From Alkalicaulis satelles (GTDB lineage Bacteria; Pseudomonadota; Alphaproteobacteria; Caulobacterales; Maricaulaceae): a stretch of 64,000 bases of DNA. Positions 30,851 through 53,915 of this stretch are shown here, in pieces. Within the stretch, counting starts at the first letter, position 1, and each line of letters begins with the position of its first letter. The position numbers and the translations under genes are program-made. Under the pieces are notes generated by a model. It did no database searches. It had not been told where the DNA came from and was given only the letters and a program-made list of their open reading frames with translations. Location of the stretch: contig NZ_VWOJ01000005.1 of NCBI RefSeq assembly GCF_008630495.1, forward strand, positions 124,001-188,000, in the 5' to 3' direction.

Positions 30851-31960
30851 CTAGCCAGAGCCCAGCAGCCTGGCCGCAACACCTTCAGCCGCCTGGGCAT
30901 CCCGGTCGTCATCGCGGAACAGATACCCATAGGTGTCGAACGTCATCTGGATCGAGGCGTGGCCCATGAGGTCCTGGATGCGTTTTGGACCCATACCCTG
31001 CTCGATGAACAGCGCCGCTGCTGCGTGCCGGAGATCGTGAAAGCGGAAGACGGGTTTGCCTTCCTGATCGACAAGCCCTGCGGCCTTCATCGCCGGGACG
31101 AAACGCCGGTTCCAGATGTTTGAGCCGCTTTCAACGCGCCCAGCCCCGTTTGGGAACACCAGCTGTGCCGGGCCTGTGGGGCATCTCAGCTTCCAGGCCT
31201 TGAGCTCGTGAATGAGATTGGCGCCCATGGGAATGTCACGATGCCCCTTGCGGGTCTTGGTTGCCTTGATGGTCCCCGTCTCACGCGCAGAGCGCCGGAC
31301 GCGGATCACACGCTCCTCAAAACGCACATCATCCCAACTCAGGGCGCGCAGCTCGCCCCGGCGCAAGCCGGTGAGCATGGCGGTCAGAAACAGGACGCGC
31401 GTGTCCGGATCGGATGCGGCCAGCAGCCGTTGCAGCTCTCTGCGCTCGGGCAGGCGTTTTTGAAACTGGCTCGCCCCACACACCCTGATCTGCTTGTCGA
31501 TGATGACATTGCGGCCAACCTGCCCGCGCCGCTGGGCGTCGGTGATGATCCGCTTGAGCGTGGCCAGAACCTTGCGCGCCATCACCGCTGATGCTTCCGC
31601 TGTAAGACTGTCTATAAATTCATAGACCCGGCGCTCTGATAGGTGGGTGAGCAGCAATTCGCCCAGGCGCGGAGAGATATGCACCCGCACATGCTGCTCA
31701 TACTGGTTCCAGGTGGACGGCTCGAGCGTCTTGACGGCGGCGGATTCCATATAGGCCGCACAAGCCTCGCGCACCGTGACGGTCTGATCGTCCATCACCA
31801 GCGTGCCCGCCCGGATTTGCGCCTTCACCTGATCCAGAAAGGCGTCTGCGTCTCTCTTGCGATCAAAATTCCTGTTCCGACGGTTTCCCGCCGGATCGAC
31901 GAAATCCACCAGCCACCGCGTCTTCCCGGACGGCAAGACACGTTTCCTGACCGATGCCAT
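30851..31960 (-). CDS. Tyrosine-type site-specific integrase of the island
   Basis: A 369-residue phage-type integrase. It has an N-terminal arm-binding domain (about 5-55), a SAM-like core-binding domain (about 60-150, TWNQYEQHVRVHISPRLGEL) and a catalytic domain from about 165. Catalytic residues are visible: Arg200 in TGLRRGEL, a Lys in KATKTRKGHRDIPM (about 232-245), His308 and Arg311 in FHDLRH, His334 in LMGHASI, and Tyr344 in FDTYGYLF. The ATG at 31960 follows GGGAGCGGAAAA. The gene lies beside attL, so it probably catalyses integration and excision at tRNA-Met. Confidence 0.95.
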   Translation of the reverse strand: MASVRKRVLPSGKTRWLVDFVDPAGNRRNRNFDRKRDADAFLDQVKAQIRAGTLVMDDQTVTVREACAAYMESAAVKTLEPSTWNQYEQHVRVHISPRLGELLLTHLSERRVYEFIDSLTAEASAVMARKVLATLKRIITDAQRRGQVGRNVIIDKQIRVCGASQFQKRLPERRELQRLLAASDPDTRVLFLTAMLTGLRRGELRALSWDDVRFEERVIRVRRSARETGTIKATKTRKGHRDIPMGANLIHELKAWKLRCPTGPAQLVFPNGAGRVESGSNIWNRRFVPAMKAAGLVDQEGKPVFRFHDLRHAAAALFIEQGMGPKRIQDLMGHASIQMTFDTYGYLFRDDDRDAQAAEGVAARLLGSG

Positions 31961-31986
31961 TTTTCCGCTCCCTTGATAAAAGCCTA

Positions 31987-32029
31987 TTGACGCAGTCATT
32001 CGCTTCAGGCATAGACATGCAGCGAATGA
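31987..32029 (+). promoter_or_regulatory. Promoter overlapped by operator-like inverted repeat
   Basis: Between the integrase and the divergent gene, a perfect 9-bp inverted repeat (TCATTCGCT at 31996-32004 and AGCGAATGA at 32021-32029, 16-bp spacer) overlaps a possible promoter (TTGACG at 31987, 17-bp spacer, CATAGA at 32010). A repressor bound here could control both directions. The promoter call is by eye. Confidence 0.45.
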
Positions 32030-36960: not shown

Positions 36961-39900
36961 CTATTTTTCATTAATCAATCCGAAATAGGTGCGCCCAGCA
37001 TCGCACTTTATCAGAGCATTCATTCGACCCAGCTCTTTAAATTGGATACTAATCGAATTAGAGAAATCAAACCGCACCGGACGAATAGGTTTCCACGCCC
37101 CCACTCCCTGGTCCAAAACAAGAACAGCTTTTGCGCCTGACTGCGTCTCTACACTCAGCGTGCGCCAATGGGGGCATTCCTGCCGCTCAAGCACACTTGC
37201 TGGCACTCCAACATCCCTGAAAAGCGCGCTGAGTACCTCGTTGCGATCCTCGATATGTGGCCAGTCATGGGTCAGAAGATCAGCGCGACGCGGCTCATCA
37301 TAGCGTTTCGCGCCTCGCGTGATCACATTGCATTTCGCGCCCGGCCCTGCCAAAGCACCTATGATCTCAGCGTAAAGGCGCACCGCTAGTGGATTGTAAA
37401 TGTAGCGATCATGGATCGTGATCCTGACAGCTGGCTCAGCCTTCGCTCCAAAAACATCCGGGGCAAGCTCCGCCGCCAACGCTTTGAACCGCTCTCCAAA
37501 CCCCAACACCGGTCCGTCCAGGTCAGGACCGACAAATCTGATGCCGCCGCGCTGGTCACCTTGGAGCCATGCGGTTACATCGACAGCCGCTCGTGCCAGC
37601 TCCGCATCTGTGATCAGCCGCGTCTCGGCTGACACATTTGGTGCATCGACCGCAAATCCCCATTCAGGGCCAGGAGCGCAAGTTATATCTTTGGCGCCAA
37701 AAAAGCGGGCTTGATCAGCGGAGCGGCAATATAGTGCTGCGTTTTCAAGCCATGACAGTGCCGCTGCGTCCAGAATGCGTGCGCCAATTCGTTCAGCGTT
37801 GAGCGCGAACTCAGCCTTGATATTAGGAGCGCATGCCTTGATTTCAGCGGCATTGACTACAAACCAAAGCGATCCGCCTCCAGCACTGAAACGTTTGAGG
37901 AACGGACCGGCTGACCACTCAGAGAAGTCCCAGGCATCAGGTGCACCGGTCAATCGGACCACCAAACTGGGGTCCTTGCGAGCATTTAGCCGCCCCAAAG
38001 CGGCCTCAAGCAAAGGCGCACTCTCATAGCGTGTGACGTCACCCAGGACTTTAAAGCGCCGGGGCATGTCCAAGCGCAAGCTCGCCTCTCTCAGCGCTTT
38101 AAACGCGGATGCGCGATCTGACCGTTCAGCGAGATGCTGAACATCTGGCCCAAGCACACAGGCTGAGCAGATTTTTTTCGCATCAGGGTCTCCGCATCGT
38201 CCCGTTTTCGAGCAATCGAGCAGCTCGGTAGCCAATCTTATGCGGTCTATTGGGTCATCGCCTATTGACGACGCGAATCCAGCCCCGCCGACGGCATGAT
38301 CATAAACCACCGCCGTATGCGTCGGGCGGCCCTGACGATCCCGCGTTTGCAGCGCGGCCACACCCATCTCAGTAGGTTCGACGCCTAAACGGCGTGCATT
38401 TGCCTCACGCAAAGCGAGCGCTGTAGCCAAGGCAGCTTCACGGCTTTTCAAACCGGCCAATTGCAGCTCGAATACGCTGGTGCGGGTCTCTTCACCCAGG
38501 CTAAGGCGGCGCTGCATCTTGAAGCCGCCGGACGATCCTGGACAGACCTCCAAGGCCTCGCCGCCTTTAGATCGGCGCAGGGGCCGGTGAGCGGACATGG
38601 ATTTTGGCAAATCGCCGTCAGGGCTTGTCTCCGGCTCAGCGCGACCGCACTCCAGACAAAGGGCGTAGCCATGCCCATGGGCACCAGGGTTGAACGTGAA
38701 CACCAAACCCGCTGCATCCGTGCGAAGCCGGCCAAGTTCGGGATCAGGCAAGTCGCGCCAGTCGGCGTTCAACGACCCGACCCAGGCGTCAGGCCGCGGC
38801 GAATACGGCGCTCCTTCGGGTTGATCGCTCGTCGCAACGGCGGTGTCGACGGTAAAGCCAGCGGGTGCCAGGTAGCTAATGTCAACCGACCTCGCTTCGC
38901 CGCAATCTGGGTTCGGGCACCCTCGATCCTCGGACGCAGTAGATTGACTTCGCAAGCGTCCACAGCCTCGGCACTGGCGCACAGTGCGAAGGCTTTGGGT
39001 TTCTTTAACTGGCTCATCGCCGTCTGGACGCTTCCAGTTCAGCGTGACGCCAGCGCTGCGCCTAACAATGCCATCAACCACCACCTCGGCGCCTGGGGCG
39101 TATTCGAAAATGGCCATGTTTCTTTGCCGGCTCGGCAATCCCCGCGCCCGCAGCCTCCGATCCTCAAGGATCGGCCGGCCGCTCTCCTCCTGACGCTTTT
39201 TTTGCTGAGCGATCTCTTGTCCAGAATAGGGCCAGAAGGTCACCACGCCCGTCGGGAAGCCGTAGGCCGGGAAAAATCCCTGGCCGGACAAAGCAGACAG
39301 CAGATAGTCGCGTGAAAGCCGGTCGCGCTGAGCTGATCGCGCACGTTCCTCCGCCGACTGATCCGTCAGCGCGCCGTCGAGCGCTTCCCATTCAATCTCC
39401 ACCGCCTCCTTGATCGCAAGGACCCTATCGCGCGACGCCAATATAACATCGACGCCCGGCGCCAAGGGCGTACCGGCCAGCAGCGCGTCGAGATCGGCGT
39501 CCTGAGCTAATACGTCAGCGCGCGCCTCAAGCCATCCTGCAAAAGCGTCCACGGGTGCGCGCTCGACCTCAATATCGAGCGCGAAGAATGCACCCACCGT
39601 CATCTTATAGAGCTCTTTGCCCTCGTCGCGAAGAAAGCGGGCGAGCAGCCATGCGTTGACGTGGCGCTGAACGATCATCGCACTGTCTAATGACACCCGT
39701 GGCGCGACCTGTTTGCGCTCGAAATAGCTCATGGGGTCATTGACAACCTCGCGGTCCAGCGGTCGGTCCTTGCAAATGGTCAAACCCAAAGAAATCGACT
39801 GGCCGCCCCGGCCCGCTCGGCCCACGCGTTGCTTGTAGTTCGCGATGGATGGCGGAGCGTTCGTCAGAATAACGGCCTCCATTTGACCGATATCGACGCC

Positions 39901-42900
39901 CATCTCCATGGTGGTGGAGCAGCTTAAGACATTGATTTTTCCAGATTTAAATCCCGCCTCGTAGGCTTGGAGAATGGGTTGCTCGAGTTGTGCGGAGTGT
40001 TCAGCGGTACGAAAATAGCTGTCTAGGCGAGCGGCCCGGTCATTGCGCCCATCCCAGAGCCGTTGAGTGCGAAGCTCGCCAATGAGGGGGTCGCTTTCCA
40101 GCCAATCGATAATGTCTCCGCTCGGGACCCCGAAGCCGCTTTCATCTTTCAGGAGTGGAAATGGGTGGAGCGGGAAGACTGCGCGCTGAGTTTCGGGGTG
40201 ACGGCCTTGGCTGTCGCGATAGATTGATCGCCCTTTGAACGCAGCTTGCAGCGGAACACGGGTGATCGGGCAAATGTCTGCCTCCTGCACCGGGACAACG
40301 GCCAGCTTGGTCCAATCGAGACGGAATCCTCCATCACCGTCTTTCAGCACGCCTGAGCCCTTCACCGCCAGGAAAGCGGCGTCGAAAAGATCGGCCAGCT
40401 CCGCACGGCCCGCCTTATCTTCAGGGGATATCTTCAAAGCTTGGAATGCCAAACTTACAATCGCGTTGGCGTCAGGCCGAGGTCCATAGGGGTTGGTCCA
40501 GACTTTCTGGCGTGCTTTGTCGTGAACGTCATTTTGACTTCTAACAACAAAGCGTCCGCCGCCTTTAATGTTGGCGAAAATCATCCATGCGCCATTGCGC
40601 ACGGTAATCATCTGGTTCTGGCGCAAGAAGTGCGTGACAAGCAGCTCCAGCAATGCCTGCCAATCGGATTTGAGCAGGCCAAGTTGGCCCGCAACCACTG
40701 GCGGAGGCGCGTAATCGGGCAATTGCAGGCGGACAAAGCCGAGTGTCTCAGCGCTTGCAGCCCATTTCGGCCGTCTTGCAAGCTCCCGCAGCAATAAAAA
40801 TTCGGCCAACTCGTCGGCAGTTTCAATGCGGCTTGTTCGAGGAGACCAGAGGGCTAGAAGCGCGCCTTGAACGTCGGAATGGCGCGCCAGATCCTGAACA
40901 AGTTCATAAATGGGTAGCGCACGAACGGCCCCGCCGCCCTCCTTCTGTTTGATTTGCTCGCGCACTGTTTTGATAACGCTCGCCAGTGCGGGGTTGCTTT
41001 CAATCAGTGCGAGCTGCGCCTTCAGCTCCGCCAGGCCGGCATCGTCTTTAGTAGCCGCCTTACGGGCCGAATTTTGGACCGAGTGATAGAGCCAGGCGCG
41101 GACAAATTCGCGCTCGGCGCCGATCTGGAGCGCGGAGGCGTGCTTTGCCGTCCCCTGTCTGGCGTCGGTGAAGCTGATCAGTTTCCGGCCTCGCGCTGGC
41201 AAGCCGGTGGAGTCCGGCTCTGGGGTGAGCATAGGCAGCAGGGCTGGAACAAGCTGCCTGAGCAAATAAGGCGCACCGGCGCGGAGCGGCCTGACGGGGC
41301 CATAAGTCTCATGCTTTTCGGGTGCTGCGCCGCAGTGCGGGCAAAGGTTCGGATTATCATGGCGACGCAATTCAATGGAGCCGTCCATTGGAAAGTCGAG
41401 AATGCGACCGGTTCGAGGCTCCATTTGAAGCGCGACGCCATTCCGGTTCGAGGTCAGCAAGCAGCGCATTGAAGCCGTGTCGTGCTCTGGCTCCAGCGCG
41501 AGGGTGGCGTCACTAAGTGGCAAGTCATCATCCTCGACGTCCGGCGGCGATGCATGAAATTCAGGGTCGAGATCTTGAGCGAAGTCCGCACCAGGGTCTT
41601 CGGTTGGGCGACTGAGTCTGACGCCATCATCTGCTGCGCTCAGCGCGCCGTCACCGCAGGTTCGGCAACTGACCCATTCAAACATAACTGAGCGGCAGTG
41701 GGGGCAATGCTCATGCGCTTCAGTGTCCACGAACCCGTAGGGCCAATCGGCCATGGCTGGCGGCTTGCCTGAACATGCTGAATTGGGACAGACGTGAACG
41801 CCTGAGAGCACGTTATGGAACATATGCAGGCGTATCGGCAGTACCGCTTCAGATCGCGACTCTTCCGGATTTCGGCGGGCCTGCAGGGCATGCACAAGCA
41901 GGCTGACCGCTTCATCCTGTCCAGCTGCGGGGTCGCCGAGAATATCGCATGCCGCCTGGCGCCATTGCGACCAGGTTAGGGGCCGGTCGGCCCGCAGGCG
42001 TTCGCGCACTTTGCGCAGTGCAGCGTTGGCGAACAACGCCCGCGCCCGCTCTTCATCACTGCTGCGCTGAAGCTGCGAAAGCGAGAGCGGCGACGGCTCC
42101 AGCGGATCCTCCGGCAACACCGCCCTCTGGCCCAGAACCACATGCACTTGATCCAGCGGCGCTCCAGAGAGCTGAGAGAGGAAAGCGCCCAGCGGTGCGG
42201 GATCACCATCCCCAATGGTCGCGGAGGTCGCGACGTAGCGAAGCTCTTCGGGGCGCTTTCCGAACGCCGCAGCCACCCTGCGCAATAGCAGAGACAATTC
42301 GGCGGCCTGAGCCCCGATATAGCTGTGGGCCTCGTCGAGAACGATGTACTCCAGCGTGCCGTCAGATTGCTCGAGAATCGGCGCGTCTTCGCGGCGTACG
42401 AGCATGTATTCGAGCATGGTGATATTGGTGACCAAGACCGGCGGCGGCGTCGCGCGCAAGGTCTTGCGGTCAGCCACTTTGGCCGGATTCATCCGGGCTT
42501 CATCGGCTTTGATCTCGTTGGGGGTGGCCCCATTATAGAGACAGTAGCGGAGCGATCCGCCAAAGGGCTCGAACCAGGCTTTTAGGCGCTCCTCCTGGCT
42601 ATTGATAAGGGCGTTCAGCGGATAAAGCATGATGGCGCGCACGCCGGTGAGGCGGCGCTCGCCGCTATTCGACAGCTCAACAAGCCGGTCTAGTAGCGGC
42701 GCCAGAAAGCACTCGGTTTTGCCTGATCCTGTGCCGCTGGAGACGATTACCGACCGCGGGTCGTCGGCACGCAAGTGCGACCAGGCTTCCACCTGATGGG
42801 CATAAGGCGGAAACATCTTCTCGCTCAGCGTGTCCACTGTGCGGGTTTGAAAGAGCTCGCGCACCCCATCCCAGCCCGCGTCCGCCGGCTTCCAGGGAAA

Positions 42901-43050
42901 TGCACCCTCCAAGATCAATTCGCTGCCGCGCGCGTTTAGCCGTGCCAGCGCGGCCTGTTCTAGGCCTGGAGTGCGCAGCTTGGAGATTTCAAGCAAAGAC
43001 CGGCTGGTCTCTCGGGGGATGCGCGAAAGCAGGGCTTGGATGTCGATCAT
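36961..43050 (-). CDS. druE: Druantia DruE: giant DEAD/DEAH helicase with DUF1998
   Basis: A 2029-residue superfamily 2 helicase. Motifs: Walker A SSGTGSGKTE (about 104-113), DEAH box at 239-242 in IVLDEAHSYIG, SAT motif near 275, and motif VI QRVGRAGRGGQS near 1073. Two Cys-rich zinc-ribbon-like clusters lie near 420-465 (CPNSACSGK, HCPHCRSVM, CRTCGDG). Another near 1620 (CSKTGRCGDPDAKKICSACV) marks the DUF1998 region. Size and order match DruE, the shared component of Druantia anti-phage systems. It starts 3 bp after the stop of druH. DISARM helicases also carry DUF1998 but have different partners. Confidence 0.9.
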   Translation of the reverse strand: MIDIQALLSRIPRETSRSLLEISKLRTPGLEQAALARLNARGSELILEGAFPWKPADAGWDGVRELFQTRTVDTLSEKMFPPYAHQVEAWSHLRADDPRSVIVSSGTGSGKTECFLAPLLDRLVELSNSGERRLTGVRAIMLYPLNALINSQEERLKAWFEPFGGSLRYCLYNGATPNEIKADEARMNPAKVADRKTLRATPPPVLVTNITMLEYMLVRREDAPILEQSDGTLEYIVLDEAHSYIGAQAAELSLLLRRVAAAFGKRPEELRYVATSATIGDGDPAPLGAFLSQLSGAPLDQVHVVLGQRAVLPEDPLEPSPLSLSQLQRSSDEERARALFANAALRKVRERLRADRPLTWSQWRQAACDILGDPAAGQDEAVSLLVHALQARRNPEESRSEAVLPIRLHMFHNVLSGVHVCPNSACSGKPPAMADWPYGFVDTEAHEHCPHCRSVMFEWVSCRTCGDGALSAADDGVRLSRPTEDPGADFAQDLDPEFHASPPDVEDDDLPLSDATLALEPEHDTASMRCLLTSNRNGVALQMEPRTGRILDFPMDGSIELRRHDNPNLCPHCGAAPEKHETYGPVRPLRAGAPYLLRQLVPALLPMLTPEPDSTGLPARGRKLISFTDARQGTAKHASALQIGAEREFVRAWLYHSVQNSARKAATKDDAGLAELKAQLALIESNPALASVIKTVREQIKQKEGGGAVRALPIYELVQDLARHSDVQGALLALWSPRTSRIETADELAEFLLLRELARRPKWAASAETLGFVRLQLPDYAPPPVVAGQLGLLKSDWQALLELLVTHFLRQNQMITVRNGAWMIFANIKGGGRFVVRSQNDVHDKARQKVWTNPYGPRPDANAIVSLAFQALKISPEDKAGRAELADLFDAAFLAVKGSGVLKDGDGGFRLDWTKLAVVPVQEADICPITRVPLQAAFKGRSIYRDSQGRHPETQRAVFPLHPFPLLKDESGFGVPSGDIIDWLESDPLIGELRTQRLWDGRNDRAARLDSYFRTAEHSAQLEQPILQAYEAGFKSGKINVLSCSTTMEMGVDIGQMEAVILTNAPPSIANYKQRVGRAGRGGQSISLGLTICKDRPLDREVVNDPMSYFERKQVAPRVSLDSAMIVQRHVNAWLLARFLRDEGKELYKMTVGAFFALDIEVERAPVDAFAGWLEARADVLAQDADLDALLAGTPLAPGVDVILASRDRVLAIKEAVEIEWEALDGALTDQSAEERARSAQRDRLSRDYLLSALSGQGFFPAYGFPTGVVTFWPYSGQEIAQQKKRQEESGRPILEDRRLRARGLPSRQRNMAIFEYAPGAEVVVDGIVRRSAGVTLNWKRPDGDEPVKETQSLRTVRQCRGCGRLRSQSTASEDRGCPNPDCGEARSVDISYLAPAGFTVDTAVATSDQPEGAPYSPRPDAWVGSLNADWRDLPDPELGRLRTDAAGLVFTFNPGAHGHGYALCLECGRAEPETSPDGDLPKSMSAHRPLRRSKGGEALEVCPGSSGGFKMQRRLSLGEETRTSVFELQLAGLKSREAALATALALREANARRLGVEPTEMGVAALQTRDRQGRPTHTAVVYDHAVGGAGFASSIGDDPIDRIRLATELLDCSKTGRCGDPDAKKICSACVLGPDVQHLAERSDRASAFKALREASLRLDMPRRFKVLGDVTRYESAPLLEAALGRLNARKDPSLVVRLTGAPDAWDFSEWSAGPFLKRFSAGGGSLWFVVNAAEIKACAPNIKAEFALNAERIGARILDAAALSWLENAALYCRSADQARFFGAKDITCAPGPEWGFAVDAPNVSAETRLITDAELARAAVDVTAWLQGDQRGGIRFVGPDLDGPVLGFGERFKALAAELAPDVFGAKAEPAVRITIHDRYIYNPLAVRLYAEIIGALAGPGAKCNVITRGAKRYDEPRRADLLTHDWPHIEDRNEVLSALFRDVGVPASVLERQECPHWRTLSVETQSGAKAVLVLDQGVGAWKPIRPVRFDFSNSISIQFKELGRMNALIKCDAGRTYFGLINEK

Positions 43051-43053
43051 GGA

Positions 43054-46000
43054 TCACTTTCCAGCAGAAAGATGGAGGTCAAGCATGGCGCGGGATACGC
43101 CGTGATCAAAGAAATCAGGGTCGTATAGTCGCGCCAACCGGAACTGGCTTGCCGCCTTTGGCCCAAACTCAGAGAGACCGAGCGCGATGCGCGCAGCGGC
43201 TCGAGGGGCCGCGAGAACGCAGTCAAATTGACACGCGAACCGACCCCGCAAATCACCAAGGACGCCCGTATCCAGAGTCAATCTTGGCGGCGGGACGCCA
43301 TCGACCCGCCGCTTAACCATCGCCTGAGCCAAATCCGAGTAGCTATATTCTCGAATCTCACAAAGCGCCCGGCTGAACGGCGCTTCACGATCACGGCGCT
43401 CGGCCTCGTCCATGCCTGATTGCAGCATCACCGCATGGGCGGCTTGAGCTGCATGCAGCCGAAGGTCAGGCCTATGGCTAACCTGTGCCAAATGCTCAAT
43501 GAGCGGGCTGGCCGCCATATATGGACTGTCGATTCCAGCTTTGAGAAGCTGCGTACGGGTAAATTCAAATTGCTCTGTGAAAGCAGTGACCCAAGTCTCT
43601 GCCTTGATAGTGGGCCAAACCAAAGCCAGCTCACTCTCCAGGTCGAAGACTGCGTCCAGATCAGTGCGCCCGGTTGCTCCAGCAAGCATGTAAACCGCTA
43701 GCTGGGGCGTTTGGGCCAGCACGCCTAGGATATCAAAGCTAATCGGCGGAACCTGATATTTGCGCGCGGCGTTGACAGTAGCCAGGGCCAAGCGTGCGAA
43801 CTCACGGCGATCTGTAGCCGTATCCCCGACAGCCATCAGTGCATTTCGACGGCCAGACGCCAGCAATGACGCCGCCTGAACCTTGTTGGCGGGGACGCTG
43901 CTTTCGCGGGCAGCAATAAACACTGGCCGCATACGGCTGTGGTTTGCGCCGCGGCCAGTCAGGACCCATGGCCCGGGGCCCGACCTATGGTGGGCTAACG
44001 CCTCAAACGAGATCGCGGTAGCCGCCTCCTCGAGGGTGAGCTGGCACCCGTTCTCAGGCGCCAGTAACGGGATGAAGATGAGGTGCTCAAAGCCTAAGGC
44101 GCGCAGATACGCGACCGTTTCATCTACCGGTCTTTCCCACGTGGATCGAGGCGGATCCAAGTCATAGCGGCGCACCGTGAGGGCGCGCCCGCCGCCTCGC
44201 CAGAGAATATCCACGCGGGCTTCGTGGTCGTTTGTTTGGCTCAAAAGAGCGCGAATATCGTCGCGATAGACCGTCAGGGGAGTGTCGCCCGTGACCTTTC
44301 GGACAAATCCTACACGGCTTCCATAACCGGCCAACTCAAACAATAAAAGGTCGCTGGACTGGCTCCACGCCGAATAGCGAAAAAGCGAGCTGGCACCGAC
44401 CGTCTGCGCCCCTTTTATCGGCAGATCATTCTCCAGTATTGCTTTTGAGAGCGACGTATCCCTTAATTTTAGCCGAACCCGACGATCACCCCAGCTTAAC
44501 CCAACCTCAAAGACTGCGCCTGGAGTGAGTTCGGCGAGATCAAGCTCCACGTTCGGTCCTTGGGCAATGGCTTTGACACCATCAGTTCGCGCTTTCACCA
44601 GCGCGCCTGCGAGGCCGGATAGGATAACGCGGCGCGCGCTGCTGCTTGGGGCAAAATCAATTTGGAATTCGTCCGGAAGCAAAACTACATGCGCGGAGCC
44701 GATCAGCACGCCCTCCTTCGCTAGGCCGATTTCCACATCACCGAACGGCGCTTCATTGCGATACAGTCTCCATTGTCCTCGCCCCTTCGGCCGCCATAGC
44801 AAATCGGCACGCGACGCTTCAACGAGGGCACCACGGTCACGACACAACACACGTGGCTGACCGATGAACGCCGTCGGCTTGCACGCGGTCGTGTATCGGC
44901 CATCCAATAGTAGCGGGGCGCCCGAACTCTCGGCGCACCCTGTGCGCCATACACGTGTAAGGCCGTCACACTCAAGACGCGCTTCGCCTGAAAAACCAAC
45001 GAGGACATATTTCTCATCGACCGGCTCTGGATTTTCGCGTTCTGATCCGGGCCGCCAATCGATTTCGTCCAAACGTTTCCGATCAACTAACAGGAACAAG
45101 CGCTCACCAGGGTGATCGACTGAAGCATTTGAGACCATCCGTAACCGATCAGCGGAATCTCCGCCGCTGTAGGACGCGAAGACCAACACATCTTCCAGCT
45201 GGGGGGACGCCCCGCGCGGCGCGATCAATACGGGCGGGCGCTCGCCGACTTGGCATACCAGTGTGACATCGTCAGCTAGAGCCAGGTCAAATTGGCTCCG
45301 GCCGAGCGGGCGGACGGTCAGAGCTTCGCCTTCACTTGAAAAGCTGCGTTCAATCAGGGCGATGGCGCGCGATGACGCCCGGCCTTTAGATGTGCGTAGG
45401 AAAAGCTGTGCGCGCGATGCGCCTTCCAACGCGTCCCGCAGCTCGGCGCTGATATCAAAGAGGTCGATTTCGCCTTCCAACCCGATCTCAAGGGCAGGCC
45501 TCCAGGCGCCGCCAGAGCGGTAGAGCACGCGCTCAGCGGAGAAGACGTCCTCTCCACGGGCGGATGTGCGCAGAGCGTCGGCGATGAGCGCGCGCAAGTC
45601 CTCCGCTTCGGCAGGCACTGGCAGTTCATCCAGCCAGCCGGGCCTGATGCGGGTCAGGCGAAGCACCGGATCTTCGCCTGACAGGCTGTCGCCGACCCCG
45701 ACCAAGCGCTTGAATTCAAATATTTTTTCGACCAGCTCACAGACGACTTCGGAAATGACCTCGGAAAGCGTCTCGCTGTTGGCCCGGCGTTTGCGCTCCT
45801 GCTCGACAGCAATCTTGAGCGGGACCCCTTTGAACATCTGCACCACGCTGCCGCACACCCACGCCCGAAGCCAGCTTGCGCGGCGCACTTCTGACAGCGG
45901 CAGGCCGCTCTCCCGGACCACAGCCCAGACGTTTCTCAATCCCTCAATATCTTTTGAACCGGGCCGCTTCCACCATCTGAGCCCTTTGAGGACGGCATCG

Positions 46001-46320
46001 CGCATCTCAGTGTAGCGAAGCGAATTGCGCCCGCCTGCCCCCCTGTCCTCGCGCTTGAATCCCAAGGCTGCTAAAGGCGGGTCCCAACTCCAGCCGCCGC
46101 CGTCGCGGTCACGGCGGAACCACTCCGCAAGCGCCATCACGAACAGCGCGCAGCCCTCAGGCTCGTCAAGCGCCCGCTTTCCGTCGCTCTCAAGCTTGGC
46201 GCAGGCGCGCTGATACTCCTGTGAAGTGAAACGGTACCGATATAAAGGACGTCCGTCCGGCCTTGCAATTCGATGACGAAAAAGCATCGCCTTCAAGGCT
46301 ATCGAGTATCGATTATCCAA
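43054..46320 (-). CDS. druH: Druantia DruH (STY4851/ECs_5259-like protein)
   Basis: A 1088-residue protein with no recognisable enzymatic motif. The N-terminal stretch (HRIARPDGRPLYRYRFTSQE, then YQRACAKLESDG) and the large size fit DruH, annotated elsewhere as STY4851/ECs_5259 family, the only partner of DruE in type III Druantia. The frame is bounded by a stop directly before TTG 46320; TTG is taken as start, with ATG 46287 (MLFRHRIARP) as alternative. It is cotranscribed with druE, 3 bp apart. Its role in defence is not known at molecular level. Confidence 0.82.
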   Translation of the reverse strand: MDNRYSIALKAMLFRHRIARPDGRPLYRYRFTSQEYQRACAKLESDGKRALDEPEGCALFVMALAEWFRRDRDGGGWSWDPPLAALGFKREDRGAGGRNSLRYTEMRDAVLKGLRWWKRPGSKDIEGLRNVWAVVRESGLPLSEVRRASWLRAWVCGSVVQMFKGVPLKIAVEQERKRRANSETLSEVISEVVCELVEKIFEFKRLVGVGDSLSGEDPVLRLTRIRPGWLDELPVPAEAEDLRALIADALRTSARGEDVFSAERVLYRSGGAWRPALEIGLEGEIDLFDISAELRDALEGASRAQLFLRTSKGRASSRAIALIERSFSSEGEALTVRPLGRSQFDLALADDVTLVCQVGERPPVLIAPRGASPQLEDVLVFASYSGGDSADRLRMVSNASVDHPGERLFLLVDRKRLDEIDWRPGSERENPEPVDEKYVLVGFSGEARLECDGLTRVWRTGCAESSGAPLLLDGRYTTACKPTAFIGQPRVLCRDRGALVEASRADLLWRPKGRGQWRLYRNEAPFGDVEIGLAKEGVLIGSAHVVLLPDEFQIDFAPSSSARRVILSGLAGALVKARTDGVKAIAQGPNVELDLAELTPGAVFEVGLSWGDRRVRLKLRDTSLSKAILENDLPIKGAQTVGASSLFRYSAWSQSSDLLLFELAGYGSRVGFVRKVTGDTPLTVYRDDIRALLSQTNDHEARVDILWRGGGRALTVRRYDLDPPRSTWERPVDETVAYLRALGFEHLIFIPLLAPENGCQLTLEEAATAISFEALAHHRSGPGPWVLTGRGANHSRMRPVFIAARESSVPANKVQAASLLASGRRNALMAVGDTATDRREFARLALATVNAARKYQVPPISFDILGVLAQTPQLAVYMLAGATGRTDLDAVFDLESELALVWPTIKAETWVTAFTEQFEFTRTQLLKAGIDSPYMAASPLIEHLAQVSHRPDLRLHAAQAAHAVMLQSGMDEAERRDREAPFSRALCEIREYSYSDLAQAMVKRRVDGVPPPRLTLDTGVLGDLRGRFACQFDCVLAAPRAAARIALGLSEFGPKAASQFRLARLYDPDFFDHGVSRAMLDLHLSAGK

Positions 46321-46765: not shown

Positions 46766-49525
46766 GTGACATCGCCTGAAGCGCTGGCGCGCGTACAGAT
46801 CGACGCTTTGCTGGCCGCCGCCGGATGGGTGGTGCAGGACCGGGCCGCGTTTGACCGGCAGGCCGCGCTTGGTGTTGCCGTGCGCGAGTTTCAGCTGCCG
46901 TCCGGGCCTTGCGACTATCTCCTGTTTGTGGCGGGCAAGGCGTGCGGCGTCATCGAGGCCAAGAAAGAGGGCGTCACGCTCAGCGGCGTGGCCGAGCAAT
47001 CAGAAAAATACATGGGCGCGCTGCCCGAGCATCTGGCGCGCTGGGCCGACACGCTGCGCTTTGACTATGAAAGCACCGGCGCCGAGACCTTCTTCCGGGA
47101 CCTTGACGACCCGAGGCCGCGCTCGCGCCGGGTGTTCGCCTTTCATCGGCCCGAAACCCTTCATCACTGGCTGCAGACGCCCGGCACGCTGCGCGGCAGG
47201 CTGCAGAGCCTGCCGCCGCTAGACACAAAAGGGCTGCGGGACTGTCAGATCGAAGCCATTACGGGGCTGGAGACATCCTTTGCGGAAGATCGCCCGCGCG
47301 CCCTGATCCAGCTGGCCACAGGCGCGGGCAAGACGTTCACGGCCTGCTCCTTCTCCTACCGCCTGATCCGCTATGCAGAGGCCAGGCGCATCCTGTTCCT
47401 GGTCGACCGCAAGAATCTGGGTGACCAGACCCTCAAGGAATTCCAGCAATTCCAGCCGCCCGGAGCGGCCAACCGCTTTACCGACACCTATATCGTTCAG
47501 CACCTCAGTTCCCACCGGATCGATCCGGACGCCAAGGTCGTCATCACCACCATACAGCGCCTCTATTCCATGCTGCGCGGCGAGGAGCTGGACCCGGACG
47601 CGGAAGAGGCCTCGGGCTTCGAGAGCCCTCTGGCCGAAGGCGAGCTGCCGCCGCTGGCCTATAACGCCGATTTCCCCATCGAGCTGTTCGACTTCATCGT
47701 CACGGACGAGTGTCACCGCTCGATCTATGGGCTCTGGCGCCAGGTGCTGGAGTATTTCGACGCCTCGATCATCGGGCTGACGGCGACGCCGTCCAAGCAC
47801 ACGCTGGGCTTCTTCAACCAGAACCTCGTCGCCGAATACCCCTATGAGCGCTCTGTCGCAGACGGCGTGAACGTGGGCTACGAGATTTACCGCATCCGCA
47901 CGCGCGTCACCGAGCAGGGCGGACTTGTGGAGACAGAGGAGGCCGGCTTCCAGGTGCCTGTGCGCGACAAGCGCACGCGCAAGGTCCGCTATCAGCAGCT
48001 CGACGCCGATCTGGAATACGCCGCCAGGGAGCTTGACCGCTCCGTCGTCAACCCGAACCAGATCAGGACCGTGCTGCAGACCTACAAGGACCGGGTCTTC
48101 ACAGAGCTCTTCCCCGACCGTACCGGCGAATGGCTGCCCAAGACGCTGATCTTCGCCAAGGACGACAACCACGCCGAAGAGATCGTCCATGCCGTGCGCG
48201 AGGTGTTCGGCGAAGGCAATGACTTCGCCAAGAAGATCACCTATCGCAATACCGGCGAGGATCCCAAGGCGCTGATCAAGGCGTTCCGGGTCGACCCTTT
48301 TCCGCGCGTCGCCGTCACCGTCGACATGATCGCCACCGGCACCGATATCAAGCCGGTCGAGGTGCTGATCTTCATGCGCGATGTGAAATCCGAGGGCTAT
48401 TACGAGCAGATGAAGGGGCGCGGCGTGCGCACCATTCCGGACGCGGACCTGAAGGCCGTCACACCGGACGCGAAGACCAAGACCCGCTTCATCCTGATCG
48501 ACGCCGTGGGCGTCTCGGAGACCAGGAAGAACGCTTCCCAGCCCCTGGAGCGCAAGAAGACGGTCAGTTTCGAGGCCCTGATCGAACAGATCGCCATGGG
48601 GCGGCGCGACGAGGACGCGCTGTCCTCTCTGGCCGCCCGTCTCGCCGTGCTCGACCGCAAGCTGGCGGACGAGGACCGCGTGCGCATCGCCGATATCACG
48701 GGCGGCAAGACCCCGCGTGATCTGGCCAACGCCCTCCTGGACGCCATCGACGCCGACCGGCAGGCGGCCGCTATCGATGCGCATCATGGCGCCATGGCCA
48801 CGCCCGAACAGGAAGAGGCGGTGATCGGGGGGCTCGCCGAAACCGCCTGCCGCCCCTTTGACAATCCGGCGGTGCGCACCCTTTTGAAGGACATCAAGCA
48901 GAAGACCGATATCGTCATTGACGAGTTTACCACCGACAAGGTGATGAGCGCGGGCTTCGACATGAAGCGGGCCGAAGAGACCATCACCAGCTTCCGCACC
49001 TTCATCGACGACAACCGCGATGAGCTGACCGCGCTGCAAATCCTCTATAACCAGCCCTATGGCGCACAGCGCCTGACCTATGGCGCCATCCGCGACCTGG
49101 TCCAGCGCCTGACCGACCCGCCGTACTACCTGACCACCGCCAATGTCTGGCAGGCCTACCGGCGGCTGGACGCGGCGAAAGTACGCGGCGCGCCGGTGGA
49201 TGAGCAATTGACCGAGGTGGTCAGCCTGGTCCGCTTCGCGCTGGGCCAGACCGATACGCTGGAGCCCTTCGCCGCCGTCGTGGAGCAGCGCTTTAACCTG
49301 TGGATGGGACGCGAAAAGCGCGCCGGACGTCTCTATACGCCTGAGCAGGAGGACTGGCTGCGCGCCATCGCGGCCTTCATCGCCGCCAATGCCGAAATCG
49401 CGCCGCGTGATTTCCAGGAGGCGCCGGGCTTTGCTGACCGGGGCGGGATATTGCAGGCACGCAAGGTATTAGGGCCGGGGCTGAACGACATGCTGGATGA
49501 GTTGCAGGGGGCGCTGGTCGCGTAA
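46766..49525 (+). CDS. hsdR: Type I restriction enzyme R subunit, EcoEI-like
   Basis: A 919-residue motor and nuclease subunit. The N-terminal PD-(D/E)xK nuclease shows PCDYLLFV and GVIEAKKEG (about 48-70). SF2 helicase motifs follow: LATGAGKTFTA (about 185-195), DECHRSIYG (about 314), TATPSKHT (about 337), and KGRGVRTIPD (motif VI, about 551). The C-terminal EcoEI_R_C-like part binds the methylase core. It translocates DNA and cuts at a distance from unmethylated sites. GTG start after GGGGGG. The stop overlaps the hsdS start (TAATG). Confidence 0.93.
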   Translation: MTSPEALARVQIDALLAAAGWVVQDRAAFDRQAALGVAVREFQLPSGPCDYLLFVAGKACGVIEAKKEGVTLSGVAEQSEKYMGALPEHLARWADTLRFDYESTGAETFFRDLDDPRPRSRRVFAFHRPETLHHWLQTPGTLRGRLQSLPPLDTKGLRDCQIEAITGLETSFAEDRPRALIQLATGAGKTFTACSFSYRLIRYAEARRILFLVDRKNLGDQTLKEFQQFQPPGAANRFTDTYIVQHLSSHRIDPDAKVVITTIQRLYSMLRGEELDPDAEEASGFESPLAEGELPPLAYNADFPIELFDFIVTDECHRSIYGLWRQVLEYFDASIIGLTATPSKHTLGFFNQNLVAEYPYERSVADGVNVGYEIYRIRTRVTEQGGLVETEEAGFQVPVRDKRTRKVRYQQLDADLEYAARELDRSVVNPNQIRTVLQTYKDRVFTELFPDRTGEWLPKTLIFAKDDNHAEEIVHAVREVFGEGNDFAKKITYRNTGEDPKALIKAFRVDPFPRVAVTVDMIATGTDIKPVEVLIFMRDVKSEGYYEQMKGRGVRTIPDADLKAVTPDAKTKTRFILIDAVGVSETRKNASQPLERKKTVSFEALIEQIAMGRRDEDALSSLAARLAVLDRKLADEDRVRIADITGGKTPRDLANALLDAIDADRQAAAIDAHHGAMATPEQEEAVIGGLAETACRPFDNPAVRTLLKDIKQKTDIVIDEFTTDKVMSAGFDMKRAEETITSFRTFIDDNRDELTALQILYNQPYGAQRLTYGAIRDLVQRLTDPPYYLTTANVWQAYRRLDAAKVRGAPVDEQLTEVVSLVRFALGQTDTLEPFAAVVEQRFNLWMGREKRAGRLYTPEQEDWLRAIAAFIAANAEIAPRDFQEAPGFADRGGILQARKVLGPGLNDMLDELQGALVA

Positions 49526-50898
49526 TGGACGGAGACGCGCAAAGCATTCCGAGAGGATGGGCAATCGCAAGATTAGGAGATGTAATCCCGAAGGCGCGCC
49601 CGAAAATTCAAGCCGACCCAAAGAGTTCACTTCCATTCATCGGGATGGATCATATTGAGCCGGAGTCTTTTCATCTGATTGGGCAAGATAGCTTCGCGAA
49701 GATGAAGAGCGCAGGCAGCTACTTTCGACCAGGTGATGTTCTCTATGGCCGCCTTCGCCCTTACCTGAACAAGATTCATCGCGCGAAATTTGAGGGCGTG
49801 GCCTCTGCTGAGTTCATCGTCTTGCCTTCGTCGGAGTTCTATGACGGCGACTTCGTGAAGTATCTATTGCATCAAAGGAAGTTTGTTGACTTCGCGATGA
49901 GCCGGTCATCGGGTGATCGCCCAAGGGTGAAGTTCGATGGTATTTCGGATTTTGAATTCCCCCTCCCACCCCTCAATGAACAATGTCGCATTGTCGAGAA
50001 GATCGAGACGCTGTTCGCCCGGCTGGACAAGGGCGAAGAGGCGCTGCGCGACGTGCAGAGACTGCTCGCCCGCTATCGCCAGTCCGTCCTGAAGGCCGCC
50101 GTCACCGGCCAGCTCACCGCCGATTGGCGCGCCGAGAACGCCGACCGCCTCGAACACGGCCGCGACCTGCTCGCCCGCATCCTGCAAACCCGCCGCGAAA
50201 CCTGGGACGGCCGGGGCAAATACAAGGAACCCACCGCCCCCGACACCACGGACCTGCCTGAACTCCCGGAGGGCTGGGTGTGGGCGTCTGGGAACCAGCT
50301 CTTTTCATGGTCAAGCGGCAAGTTTCTTCCGACCAAGAAGCAGGCAGGCGGAGAAATCCCAGTTTACGGCGGGAACGGTGTGAACGGATTTCACGACGAT
50401 TACCTCATCGCTGAGCCAACAATGGTGATTGGGCGCGTCGGAGCCCATTGCGGAAACGTCCATCTCACTACTGGCCCCGCGTGGGTCACTGACAATGCCA
50501 TCTATGCCACGCTTTTACCCAGCGAATGCGATCTGCGCTTCCTGACTATGCTATTTCGTCGGGCTAAACTTGGGGAAAGCTCGAAGGGCGGGGCACAGCC
50601 CTTCGTGAACCAGGAGGCTTTGAATTCGACGCTTGTTCCCTTGTCGCCGGTCGCTGAACAGCTTGAAATCATGGCTCGTTTAGATGCGGATTCCTCAAAC
50701 TCCAATGCAATTGAGGCCGCCTGCAAGACCGAACTCGTCCGCTCCGCCGCCCTGCGCCAGTCCATCCTGAAGGACGCCTTCGCAGGCCGCCTCGTCGCCC
50801 AGGACCCCGCCGACGAGCCCGCCGCCGCCCTGCTCGCGCGGATCAAGGAAACCCGCGCCGCCGCGCCCGGACAGTCCAGAAGAAGGGCTCGCGCATGA
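49525..50898 (+). CDS. hsdS: Type I restriction-modification specificity subunit S
   Basis: A 457-residue DNA-recognition subunit with two target-recognition domains. TRD1 spans about 5-150 (ARLGDVIPKARPKIQ... GRLRPYLNKIH) and TRD2 about 248-395 (GWVWASGNQLFSWSSGKFLP). Each is followed by a conserved coiled-coil spacer; the shared RQSVLKAAVTGQL and RQSILKDAFAGRL segments show the internal duplication. The TRDs are visibly less GC-rich than the spacers, a sign of domain exchange. It overlaps hsdR by 1 bp and the next gene by 4 bp. Confidence 0.93.
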   Translation: MDGDAQSIPRGWAIARLGDVIPKARPKIQADPKSSLPFIGMDHIEPESFHLIGQDSFAKMKSAGSYFRPGDVLYGRLRPYLNKIHRAKFEGVASAEFIVLPSSEFYDGDFVKYLLHQRKFVDFAMSRSSGDRPRVKFDGISDFEFPLPPLNEQCRIVEKIETLFARLDKGEEALRDVQRLLARYRQSVLKAAVTGQLTADWRAENADRLEHGRDLLARILQTRRETWDGRGKYKEPTAPDTTDLPELPEGWVWASGNQLFSWSSGKFLPTKKQAGGEIPVYGGNGVNGFHDDYLIAEPTMVIGRVGAHCGNVHLTTGPAWVTDNAIYATLLPSECDLRFLTMLFRRAKLGESSKGGAQPFVNQEALNSTLVPLSPVAEQLEIMARLDADSSNSNAIEAACKTELVRSAALRQSILKDAFAGRLVAQDPADEPAAALLARIKETRAAAPGQSRRRARA

Positions 50899-51806
50899 TG
50901 ACTTTGAATCGAGAAAGAGGGCGAAACCCTAATCTTGGTTTTGGAATGGTTCCGCCGAGCCCAACGACACTGAACAGATACTTGCGAGCCGCAAGCGAGG
51001 TTCACGATCTGCTCTTTGGAGCATCGTCGAACGAAAGATCGTTGGACGCCATAAGCGAAGTCAAAGGGCTATGCAATCGCGTCCTCCGAGAAGATCAACC
51101 CGATTGGGTCGTCGTCTGGCTTCGCCTAGGGTTGCCGAGCAAGCGTCGATTGAAGTGGATAGCGTCCGACCTCCCTAGATTGCGAAAAGCCGCTATGGAA
51201 GAGGAAAGAGGTGCTTTAGACGGGGTCGCGGAGCAACTGGTAAGGGCCGGGTTGGGGACGGCCCTCAATTTCTTCATAAGCGGAGAGGAACCGCCGGCAG
51301 AAGATGGTCGAGGATACCTCTACCTCCTGAGCACAAGATCAGATCGCAACCTGGTGAAGATTGGTCAGACCCAACGCAGCGTGCTGAAACGAGTTGAAGA
51401 GATCAACCGAGCAACCGGTGTGGTCGAGCCATTCAGCCCCCGAAACATTTGGTATGTCCGCGACCCAAGCCTCTGTGAACGGGCGGCGCATGACCTTCTC
51501 AAACAGCACCGAGTGCGAGCTGATAGGGAGTTCTTCCGAGTGGAGTTTCACGAGGCATCAAAGAAGATCACTGAACTCCTTAGAACGATGGGGATCGAAG
51601 CCCGTGATTCCGGACGCGTCAAGGCAGTTCTTTTGGAAAAGCGCTTTGGCTTCATTGAATCCCGTGGCGCGGATCATTTTTTCCACTTCTCCGAGTTGAG
51701 GGGCATCGAACCGAAGATGCTACGGATTGGAGACGACGTGCAGTTTCTACGACTTGATACCCGGCTTGGGCTCGCGGCTGCGGAAATTCAGAGGGTCGCA
51801 TCCTGA
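50895..51806 (+). CDS. GIY-YIG (T5orf172-like) nuclease fused to a cold-shock domain
   Basis: A 303-residue protein embedded in the hsd operon. Residues 1-130 are helical and unrecognised. Residues about 140-230 fit a T5orf172/Mug113-type GIY-YIG domain: YLYLL (141-145), KIGQT (155-159), conserved Arg166, Glu195 in LCERAAHDLL and REFFRV. Residues about 239-303 fit a cold-shock domain: GRVKAV, RNP1-like KRFGFIES and RNP2-like HFFHFSEL. It overlaps hsdS by ATGA and hsdM by TGATG, so it is translationally coupled to both, yet is less GC-rich than hsdM. Likely an accessory nuclease guided by single-stranded nucleic-acid binding; this is inference. Confidence 0.78.
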   Translation: MMTLNRERGRNPNLGFGMVPPSPTTLNRYLRAASEVHDLLFGASSNERSLDAISEVKGLCNRVLREDQPDWVVVWLRLGLPSKRRLKWIASDLPRLRKAAMEEERGALDGVAEQLVRAGLGTALNFFISGEEPPAEDGRGYLYLLSTRSDRNLVKIGQTQRSVLKRVEEINRATGVVEPFSPRNIWYVRDPSLCERAAHDLLKQHRVRADREFFRVEFHEASKKITELLRTMGIEARDSGRVKAVLLEKRFGFIESRGADHFFHFSELRGIEPKMLRIGDDVQFLRLDTRLGLAAAEIQRVAS

Positions 51807-53257
51807 TGACCAACGAACAGCTCGTCTCCAAGGTCTGGAACTATGCCCACATCCTGCGCGATCAGGGGGTGTCCTATGGCGATTATATCGAGCAGATCAC
51901 CTATCTCCTGTTCCTGAAGATGGACGCCGAGCGCGAGGAGCTGCTGGGCGAGGCTTCGGCCCTGCCGCCCAAATGGAGCTGGTCAAACCTGGCGGGCCGC
52001 GACGGCGAGGACCTGGAGCGCCAGTACCGCGAGACGCTGGATAATCTGGGCCGCGAGGCGGGACTGATCGGCGTCATCTTCCGCAAGGCGCAAAACAAGC
52101 TATCCGACCCGGCCAAGCTCAAACGTATTGTCAGCCTGATCGAGAAGGAGGGCCCCTGGGTGGGCCTGTCCGTCGATGTGAAGGGCGAGATTTATGAAGG
52201 CCTGCTAGAACGCAACGCCTCGGAGGTGAAATCCGGCGCCGGGCAGTATTTCACGCCCCGCCCGGTGATTGAGGCCATCGTCCAGTGCGTGGACCCGAAG
52301 ATCGGGGAGTCAGTGTGCGACCCCGCGTGCGGCACGGGGGGCTTCCTGCTGGCCGCCTATGATCACATGAAGGGGCAGACGCAGGACCGCGAGAAGCTGC
52401 GCTCGCTGCGCCATACCGCCTTCACCGGCGTGGATATCGTCGATGAAGTAGTGCGCCTGTGCGCCATGAATCTCTATCTCCATGGCGTGGGTAATGGCGG
52501 CAGCCCGGTGCTCCAGGGCGACGCCCTGGCCAGTGACGCCGGCCAGCGCTACGACGTGGTGCTGACCAATCCGCCCTTTGGCAAGAAGTCCAGCTACAAG
52601 GTTGTGGGCGAGGACGGAGCCGTGTCCACCGAGCGCGAGAATTACGAGCGCGAGGATTTCAAGTTCACCACCTCGAACAAGCAGTTCAATTTTCTCCAGC
52701 ACATCATGACGATCCTGGAGGCCAACGGGCGCGCGGGCGTGGTGCTCCCCGACAACGTGCTGTTCGAGGCGGGCCGCGCCGGGGAAGGCATCCGCAAGCG
52801 CCTGCTGGAGGGGTTCAACTTCCACACCCTGCTGCGCCTGCCCACCGGCATCTGGTACAGCCCCGGCGTGAAGGCGAACGTCCTGTTCTTCGACAAGCGC
52901 CCCGCCTCCCGCGACGTCCAGACCAAGGAGCTCTGGGTCTATGACTACCGCACCAACATCCACAAGACACTAAAGACCAAGCGGCTCACCTCGGCGGATT
53001 TCGATGATTTCGTGCGCTGCTACCACGAGCGTAAGGAGACCGAACGCTTTCGCCGGTTCGGCTACGATGAGCTCGCCCAGCGTGACAAGCTCAACCTCGA
53101 CATCTTCTGGCTGAAGGACGACAGCCTGGAGGATATCGACAGCCTGCCTGAGCCTGATGTCCTCGCCGCCGAGATCGTGGAGAACCTGCAGGCCGCGCTG
53201 GAGCAATTTCAGAGCGTGAGCGAGGCGCTATCAGAAGAAGCCCCCAGCACCCGATAG
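51806..53257 (+). CDS. hsdM: Type I restriction-modification methyltransferase subunit M
   Basis: A 483-residue N6-adenine methyltransferase. An N-terminal HsdM helical domain (about 1-130) is followed by the MTase domain with SAM motif DPACGTGGFLLAAY (about 172-185) and catalytic NPPFG motif (about 254, VVLTNPPFGKKSS). It methylates the site read by HsdS and is needed for both modification and restriction. It is last in the operon (order R-S-X-M). Its 3' end overlaps the convergent resolvase gene by 49 bp. Confidence 0.94.
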   Translation: MTNEQLVSKVWNYAHILRDQGVSYGDYIEQITYLLFLKMDAEREELLGEASALPPKWSWSNLAGRDGEDLERQYRETLDNLGREAGLIGVIFRKAQNKLSDPAKLKRIVSLIEKEGPWVGLSVDVKGEIYEGLLERNASEVKSGAGQYFTPRPVIEAIVQCVDPKIGESVCDPACGTGGFLLAAYDHMKGQTQDREKLRSLRHTAFTGVDIVDEVVRLCAMNLYLHGVGNGGSPVLQGDALASDAGQRYDVVLTNPPFGKKSSYKVVGEDGAVSTERENYEREDFKFTTSNKQFNFLQHIMTILEANGRAGVVLPDNVLFEAGRAGEGIRKRLLEGFNFHTLLRLPTGIWYSPGVKANVLFFDKRPASRDVQTKELWVYDYRTNIHKTLKTKRLTSADFDDFVRCYHERKETERFRRFGYDELAQRDKLNLDIFWLKDDSLEDIDSLPEPDVLAAEIVENLQAALEQFQSVSEALSEEAPSTR

Positions 53258-53784
53258 AGCGTCGCCCGCGACACCCCCAGCTGCCTGGCGATCTGGGGCA
53301 TGGAGTGGTTGCCCGCCTGTTTGAGCGCGCGGGCCATTTCGATCTGATCCGGCGTCAGCGCCGCCGGACGCCCGAGCCTGCGGCCTCGCGCCTTGGCGGC
53401 CTGCAGGCCCGCCTTTGTACGCTCCCGGATCATCTCGCGCTCGAACTCGGCCAGCGCGCCGAAGACGTGGAAGACAAGCTTGCCGCCGGGCGATGTCGTA
53501 TCGATGCCCTCGGTGAGGGAGACAAAGCCGATGCCCTTCTCCTGAAGCCCCTCCACGGTCTCGATGAGCTGGCGCAGCGAACGCGCCAGGCGGTCGAGCT
53601 TCCACACCACCAGCACGTCGCCGGGACGCAGATACTCTATCGCGGCCTTGAGCTCGGGCCGGTCACGCTGGGCGCCGGACGCCTTCTCCTCGTATATCCG
53701 CTCGCAGCCGATCCCCTTGAGGGCGTCGATCTGCAGATGGGTTTCCTGGTCGCGGGTGCTGACCCGCGCGTAACCGACTTTCAT
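53209..53784 (-). CDS. Serine recombinase (resolvase/invertase family)
   Basis: A 191-residue small serine recombinase. The catalytic Ser is in GYARVSTRDQ (about residue 9). The Arg cluster appears in WKLDRLARSLRQL and EFEREMIRERTKAGL. A C-terminal HTH (MPQIARQLGVSRATLYRVL) completes the Tn3-type resolvase layout. The last ten codons (after LYRVLG) lie inside the hsdM reading frame on the other strand, so the natural end was probably altered when the two pieces were joined. No transposase is present nearby. Repeats upstream look like its res sites. Confidence 0.92.
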   Translation of the reverse strand: MKVGYARVSTRDQETHLQIDALKGIGCERIYEEKASGAQRDRPELKAAIEYLRPGDVLVVWKLDRLARSLRQLIETVEGLQEKGIGFVSLTEGIDTTSPGGKLVFHVFGALAEFEREMIRERTKAGLQAAKARGRRLGRPAALTPDQIEMARALKQAGNHSMPQIARQLGVSRATLYRVLGASSDSASLTL

Positions 53785-53794
53785 GGCCCTATCC

Positions 53795-53915
53795 GTCTCA
53801 AAAACCTGACGGAATCTTATCGAGATGCCAGAGACTTTCAAGACTATTTTTGATACACCATGAGAGGTTCTGCAGCGGGCTTGGGAGACACAAATTGCGC
53901 TGTCTCAAAAACCTG
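53795..53915. repeat. Resolvase site-like repeats
   Basis: A 14-bp direct repeat GTCTCAAAAACCTG occurs at 53795-53808 and 53902-53915. The second overlaps an inverted repeat GAGACA (53885-53890)/TGTCTC (53901-53906) of 22 bp total. It lies just upstream of the resolvase start, the usual place for res subsites; a transposon terminal repeat is the alternative. The rest of the gap to 54125 shows nothing else. Confidence 0.5.

Follow-up and report, generated by a model that had tools for sequence, protein, structure and literature searches.

Results

Organisation of the hsd operon and the embedded gene X

The window, that is, the whole stretch of 64,000 nucleotides of Alkalicaulis satelles DNA analysed here and to which all positions refer, contains an intact hsdR-hsdS-X-hsdM operon with all genes on the + strand. 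The hsdR gene (46766-49525, +) encodes the type I restriction subunit R with its ResIII/SWI2_SNF2 motor and EcoEI_R_C part (Pfam ResIII, 9.8e-36; EcoEI_R_C, 6.7e-31) and overlaps by 1 bp the hsdS gene (49525-50898, +) for a specificity subunit with two target-recognition domains (Pfam Methylase_S, 5.7e-18, in two stretches; PADLOC Specificity_I, 8e-82). The type I N6-adenine methyltransferase is encoded by hsdM (51806-53257, +; Pfam N6_Mtase, 8.5e-68; HsdM_N, 3.6e-13). Between hsdS and hsdM lies a gene, designated here as X (50895-51806, +), whose 303-aa product consists of a helical N-terminal domain, a T5orf172 GIY-YIG domain and a cold-shock domain (CSD). In Pfam, NCBIfam and PADLOC, this product gave no match to HsdR, HsdM or HsdS that would identify it as a type I R-M subunit. 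By placement, its gene is embedded in the type I R-M operon, with co-directional hsd genes on either side.

The coordinates bore out the ORF and the overlaps reported in the first-pass annotation of this DNA. The hsdS stop and X start overlap by 4 bp in ATGA (50895-50898, +; hsdS TGA at 50896-50898, X ATG from 50895), and the X stop and hsdM start overlap by 1 bp in TGATG (51804-51808, +; X TGA at 51804-51806, hsdM ATG from 51806). The GC3 of X (0.576) is below that of hsdR (0.841) and hsdM (0.851), with hsdS at 0.679, and X therefore appears to be a separately acquired insert.

A divergent Druantia type III pair is located directly upstream of the hsd operon (DruE, 36961-43050, -; DruH, 43054-46320, -). 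One flank of the Druantia and hsd region carries an apparent tyrosine integrase ORF (30851-31999, -), and a serine recombinase gene (Pfam Resolvase, 9e-49) is found at the hsdM end (53209-53841, -). The presence of recombinase genes on both flanks suggests that Druantia and the R-M operon perhaps form one mobile island.

Domains of the X protein

The motifs pointed out in the first-pass annotation were located in X at residues 141 (YLYLL), 155 (KIGQT), 249 (KRFGFI) and 261 (HFFHF), and the assignment of T5orf172/GIY-YIG and cold-shock domains was confirmed by HMM comparison with Pfam, all matches being above the curated cut-offs. The nuclease domain (residues 139-225; 51309-51569, +) matched T5orf172 PF10544 over residues 140-224 with an E-value of 2e-13 (51.2 bits against a cut-off of 20), as well as MUG113 (6e-10). 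In a 20-row alignment composed of X and viral relatives, from which cold-shock rows had been dropped after misaligning, the near-invariant positions kept in X were Y143, K155-I156-G157, T159, R166, E195, H199 and R211-E212-F213-F214; the conserved catalytic positions among them are encoded on the + strand at 51321-51323 (Y143), 51357-51365 (KIG, 155-157), 51390-51392 (R166) and 51477-51479 (E195). AlphaFold modelled residues 140-231 from this alignment with a pLDDT of about 90, and the mean pLDDT of the model obtained from a 3-row alignment was 40. The top eight Foldseek matches in the PDB were all Slx1 GIY-YIG nucleases (prob 0.85-0.99), with E-values of 0.05-0.4 that are weak because most of the X model is of low confidence. 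By profile, catalytic positions and modelled fold, X is a member of the T5orf172/GIY-YIG superfamily and a predicted nuclease. The PADLOC family PDC-S57 also matched X (1.5e-18) in the nuclease domain only, and assignment of X as a full PDC-S57 member was rejected, since the match covers positions 5-100 of the 212 in the model and is not full-length.

The cold-shock domain (residues 239-300; 51609-51794, +) was recognised by Pfam (CSD PF00313, E-value of 7.3e-9, 35.8 bits against a cut-off of 27) and by a PDB sequence match to CspB. Its RNP1 motif KRFGFI (residues 249-254; 51639-51656, +) and RNP2 motif HFFHF (residues 261-265; 51675-51689, +) retain the aromatic positions. The structural check upheld the proposed GIY-YIG fold, but the CSD was poorly modelled (pLDDT below 50 from the 20-row alignment, or about 50-75 with strands from the 3-row one), and its assignment therefore rests on HMMs and sequence profiles. 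Cold-shock domains are mostly RNA-binding and recur in the CoCoNuT systems, for which RNA targeting is predicted (PMC11090510). No known modified-base reader domain was matched in X by Pfam.

The N-terminal domain (residues 1-135; 50895-51299, +), which the first-pass annotation had overlooked, has no Pfam match and was modelled by AlphaFold, with low confidence, as all-helical. Similar sequences, sharing the pattern KG..R....D..DW..V, were found in the loci L001 and L003 described below, in a plasmid protein of Rhizobium leguminosarum (L023) and on five plasmids of Streptomyces. From these five, a single protein was read over its whole length; it is a UvrD-like helicase (L024:5436-8993) containing a stretch that resembles the X domain. 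The R. leguminosarum protein (L023:7929-8762) combines the N-terminal domain with a degenerate GIY-YIG domain that has lost the catalytic residues. A profile of the N-terminal domain matched only the genome of origin among 299 genomes, in a search that scored a restricted number of candidates in each of them.

Relatives of X and of the fusion

Among 50 T5orf172 ORFs (X and 49 loci), the GIY-YIG/cold-shock fusion was found in X and L001 only, and no CSD was detected in the 48 other T5orf172 proteins. L001, a 5.4-kb contig of a Rhodobacteraceae MAG, encodes both domains with 65% identity to X, placing the fusion in a second lineage; a possible assembly artefact was rejected on account of this recurrence. 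In the L001 copy, a frameshift separates the N-terminal part from the nuclease part, which makes selection on the fusion uncertain. The protein from L003 (same family) shares 37% identity with X over residues 14-233 and has the nuclease domain without a CSD. Surveys of the family (137 genomes), the class (385) and the phylum (398) gave a single full-length match to X, that in its own genome, and a search of viral contigs (P0001) gave no relative.

X itself was found in an hsd operon once. No Hsd match was detected near its relatives in the stretches available, namely the 5.4-kb contig of L001, the stretch around L003 (L003/L033) and L023. Thus, of the proposed neighbourhood survey, recurrence of the fusion was confirmed in one case, but its link to hsd genes was not seen in the L001 contig. 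At the same time, some link of the wider T5orf172 family to hsd genes was observed (as raw counts, an Hsd match within 1.5 kb in 6 of 41 loci and then in 0 of 7 further ones). The loci with such a match include L014/L036, from a member of the same order, where a T5orf172 gene is divergent from hsdM-hsdS-hsdR (L036:2116-9064).

The hsdS-hsdM junction in related operons

Relatives of HsdM from the family, the class and plasmids were collected by HsdM similarity, and their loci are a sample of junctions rather than a statistical survey. One or two unrelated genes were located between hsdS and hsdM in 10 of the 15 loci in which a related HsdM gene adjoins hsdS, the window included. The junction contained PDC-S18 and a ThsB-like TIR gene in L045, a gene without assignment and an OLD-like ATPase in L030, DUF262/GmrSD-like genes in L046 and L052, GIY-YIG+DUF4357 in L053, HipA_C-like and HIRAN genes in L056, Septu PtuA and PtuB in L057, an AAA gene with one without assignment in L058, and one gene without assignment in L048. 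The L030 gene preceding the ATPase (L030:6847-7998) encodes a 383-aa protein with no Pfam or PADLOC match. No gene was found at the junction in L047, L038, L049, L050 and L055, two of which have, between hsdR and hsdS, genes of apparent VapBC type. Cargo at the hsdR-hsdS junction is also seen in L048, in the form of an AbiJ-type gene and an OLD-like ATPase (L048:2846-5528).

Since the contents of the junction differ even in the closest operon, L045 (HsdM, 82%), the operon frame is shared and the cargo is exchanged. Cargo GC3 was also lower than that of hsdR/hsdM in L045 (TIR), L030, L046 and L056, and was not clearly lower in L052, L053, L057 and L058. The cargo genes mostly have stop/start overlaps like those of X. 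The embedding and the overlaps stressed in the first-pass annotation are real, but the suggested coupling is not special to X, since the overlaps with hsdS and hsdM are shared by unrelated cargo genes located at this junction.

Discussion

Because the same spot holds other antiviral genes in relatives, X is most likely a swappable add-on and not a part of the restriction enzyme. In our opinion, X is probably an autonomous, separately acquired and exchangeable cargo gene for an antiviral nuclease, which relies on the operon for its expression. The T5orf172 GIY-YIG domain would cut nucleic acid, and the cold-shock domain, possibly together with the helical N-terminal domain, could provide targeting or triggering through single-stranded DNA or RNA arising in phage infection; the cold-shock domain may instead serve regulation. 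The hsdS-hsdM junction would act as an expression platform, with the stop/start overlaps coupling translation of X to that of hsdS and hsdM, and X would add to R-M a defence against invaders that escape it, presumably independently of HsdRMS.

Several other roles should be weighed against the same observations. X could be a guardian of the R-M system in the manner of PrrC, kept inactive by the Hsd complex until phage inhibition of the type I enzyme frees the nuclease and leads to abortive infection. Its co-encoding with hsdS and hsdM, both of which it overlaps, would fit such a role, a precedent being PrrC, which is encoded inside a type IC locus and for which an anti-restriction peptide is the trigger (PMC12707154); however, hsd genes are absent from the available stretches around the relatives in L001, L003 and L023, and many unrelated genes occupy the same junction, so that linkage alone says little, and we regard a guardian function as unlikely. 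The first-pass annotation had proposed an accessory nuclease whose substrate is the single-stranded or unwound DNA generated by HsdR translocation. This role found no support and appears very improbable, even though X is co-operonic with hsdR and the CSD is a single-strand-binding type of domain: no X relative is linked to hsd in the stretches available (L001, L003 and L023), which argues against any role that needs HsdR, and the foreign composition of X and the unrelated cargo at the same site also speak against this model. Moreover, type I translocation gives supercoiling, not long single strands.

An RNA-directed effector, with the CSD as its RNA-binding part and a GIY-YIG domain that stops phage or host translation by cleaving RNA or transcription-linked nucleic acid, would agree with the RNA-binding habit of most cold-shock domains, their recurrence in CoCoNuTs and the aromatic residues retained in RNP1 and RNP2. 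To our knowledge, however, the known GIY-YIG enzymes are DNA nucleases. The T5orf172 protein Odn of phage ICP1, for which nuclease activity has been demonstrated, cuts double-stranded DNA (PMC8263062), and an RNA-directed function seems to us quite unlikely. The least probable role is that of a selfish, homing-type GIY-YIG gene settled at an operon junction without any defence function. Phage T5orf172 genes are commonly homing endonucleases located near or in operons, but these enzymes usually carry zinc-finger type DNA-binding domains (PMC10448857), and X has no such Pfam match: at E-values up to 10, only T5orf172, MUG113 and CSD were obtained and no zinc-finger repeats (CapR/DUF723/DUF4397), the set having no CapR-named profile. 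In addition, what relatives carry at this junction are defence genes of non-homing kinds. Going beyond the preferred reading of X as autonomous cargo, one could envisage X as an antiviral nuclease of a new class. Its CSD would aim the GIY-YIG domain at single-stranded phage nucleic acid, gating would come from the new helical domain that UvrD-like helicases also have, and the protein would work alongside the type I enzyme or guard it; we would give this rather small credence.

The embedding of genes in type I operons is known, as for PrrC (PMC12707154) and RloF/GmrSD (PMC4619093). TgvAB, in a type I R-M operon of Vibrio cholerae, provides phage defence without HsdR (PMC11411939) and resembles X in being extra nuclease genes of an hsd operon with complementary restriction, which for X is a proposal; however, TgvAB is a two-protein GmrSD-type system shown by experiment, whereas X is a single predicted GIY-YIG/CSD gene. 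DarTG2, within the type I R-M locus of EPEC, is likewise a defence module between hsd genes, the defence role of X being proposed, but it is a toxin-antitoxin system between hsdS and hsdR with its own dedicated repressor (PMC12255303). The anticodon nucleases PrrC/RloC, also encoded within or linked to hsd genes, are ABC-ATPase tRNases for which no sequence relation to X was found. A GIY-YIG nuclease with an extra domain in one protein is also seen in CMoRE/PD-T4-3 (PMC12923530) and the wH-GIY-YIG type IV enzymes (PMC11037411), but their readers sense modified bases, whereas X has a CSD and no recognised modification reader. Odn shares with X the fusion of a T5orf172 nuclease to a separate nucleic-acid-binding domain and a role in conflict, but it is phage-encoded and its domain is an origin-binding RepA_N domain (PMC8263062). 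A RAMA domain as the C-terminal domain of common T5orf172 proteins had no Pfam support and was dropped.

The GIY-YIG/CSD fusion within hsd genes was absent from the literature searched, as the first-pass annotation had supposed. New here are the occurrence of this domain combination in such a position and the range of cargo that the junction accommodates. X is an effector candidate open to testing, and in type I operons of this R-S-M clade the hsdS-hsdM junction (as well as hsdR-hsdS) appears to be a site where antiviral cargo is loaded (Septu, GmrSD-like, TIR, OLD ATPases, GIY-YIG) and which could be mined for new defence genes.

The PDC families of PADLOC were obtained through guilt-by-embedding, and most of them are candidates awaiting validation (PMC12988326). 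PDC-S57 and PDC-S14 are, like X, single-gene GIY-YIG candidates, but neither a CSD nor the N-terminal domain of X was observed in these families; PDC-S57 shares only the nuclease domain with X, and PDC-S14 has a canonical GIY-YIG domain with DUF4357. PDC-S14-like genes do occur in hsd operons (L053, L065, L066 and L068). The Streptomyces Alt2 gene (P0004, PDC-S14) is located between hsdS and hsdM, and four further relatives lie outside an hsd operon (L067), after hsdS (L065), between hsdS and hsdR (L066) or between hsdM and hsdS (L068). A GIY-YIG gene beside hsdS has been noted earlier on a Lactococcus plasmid (PMC4420470).
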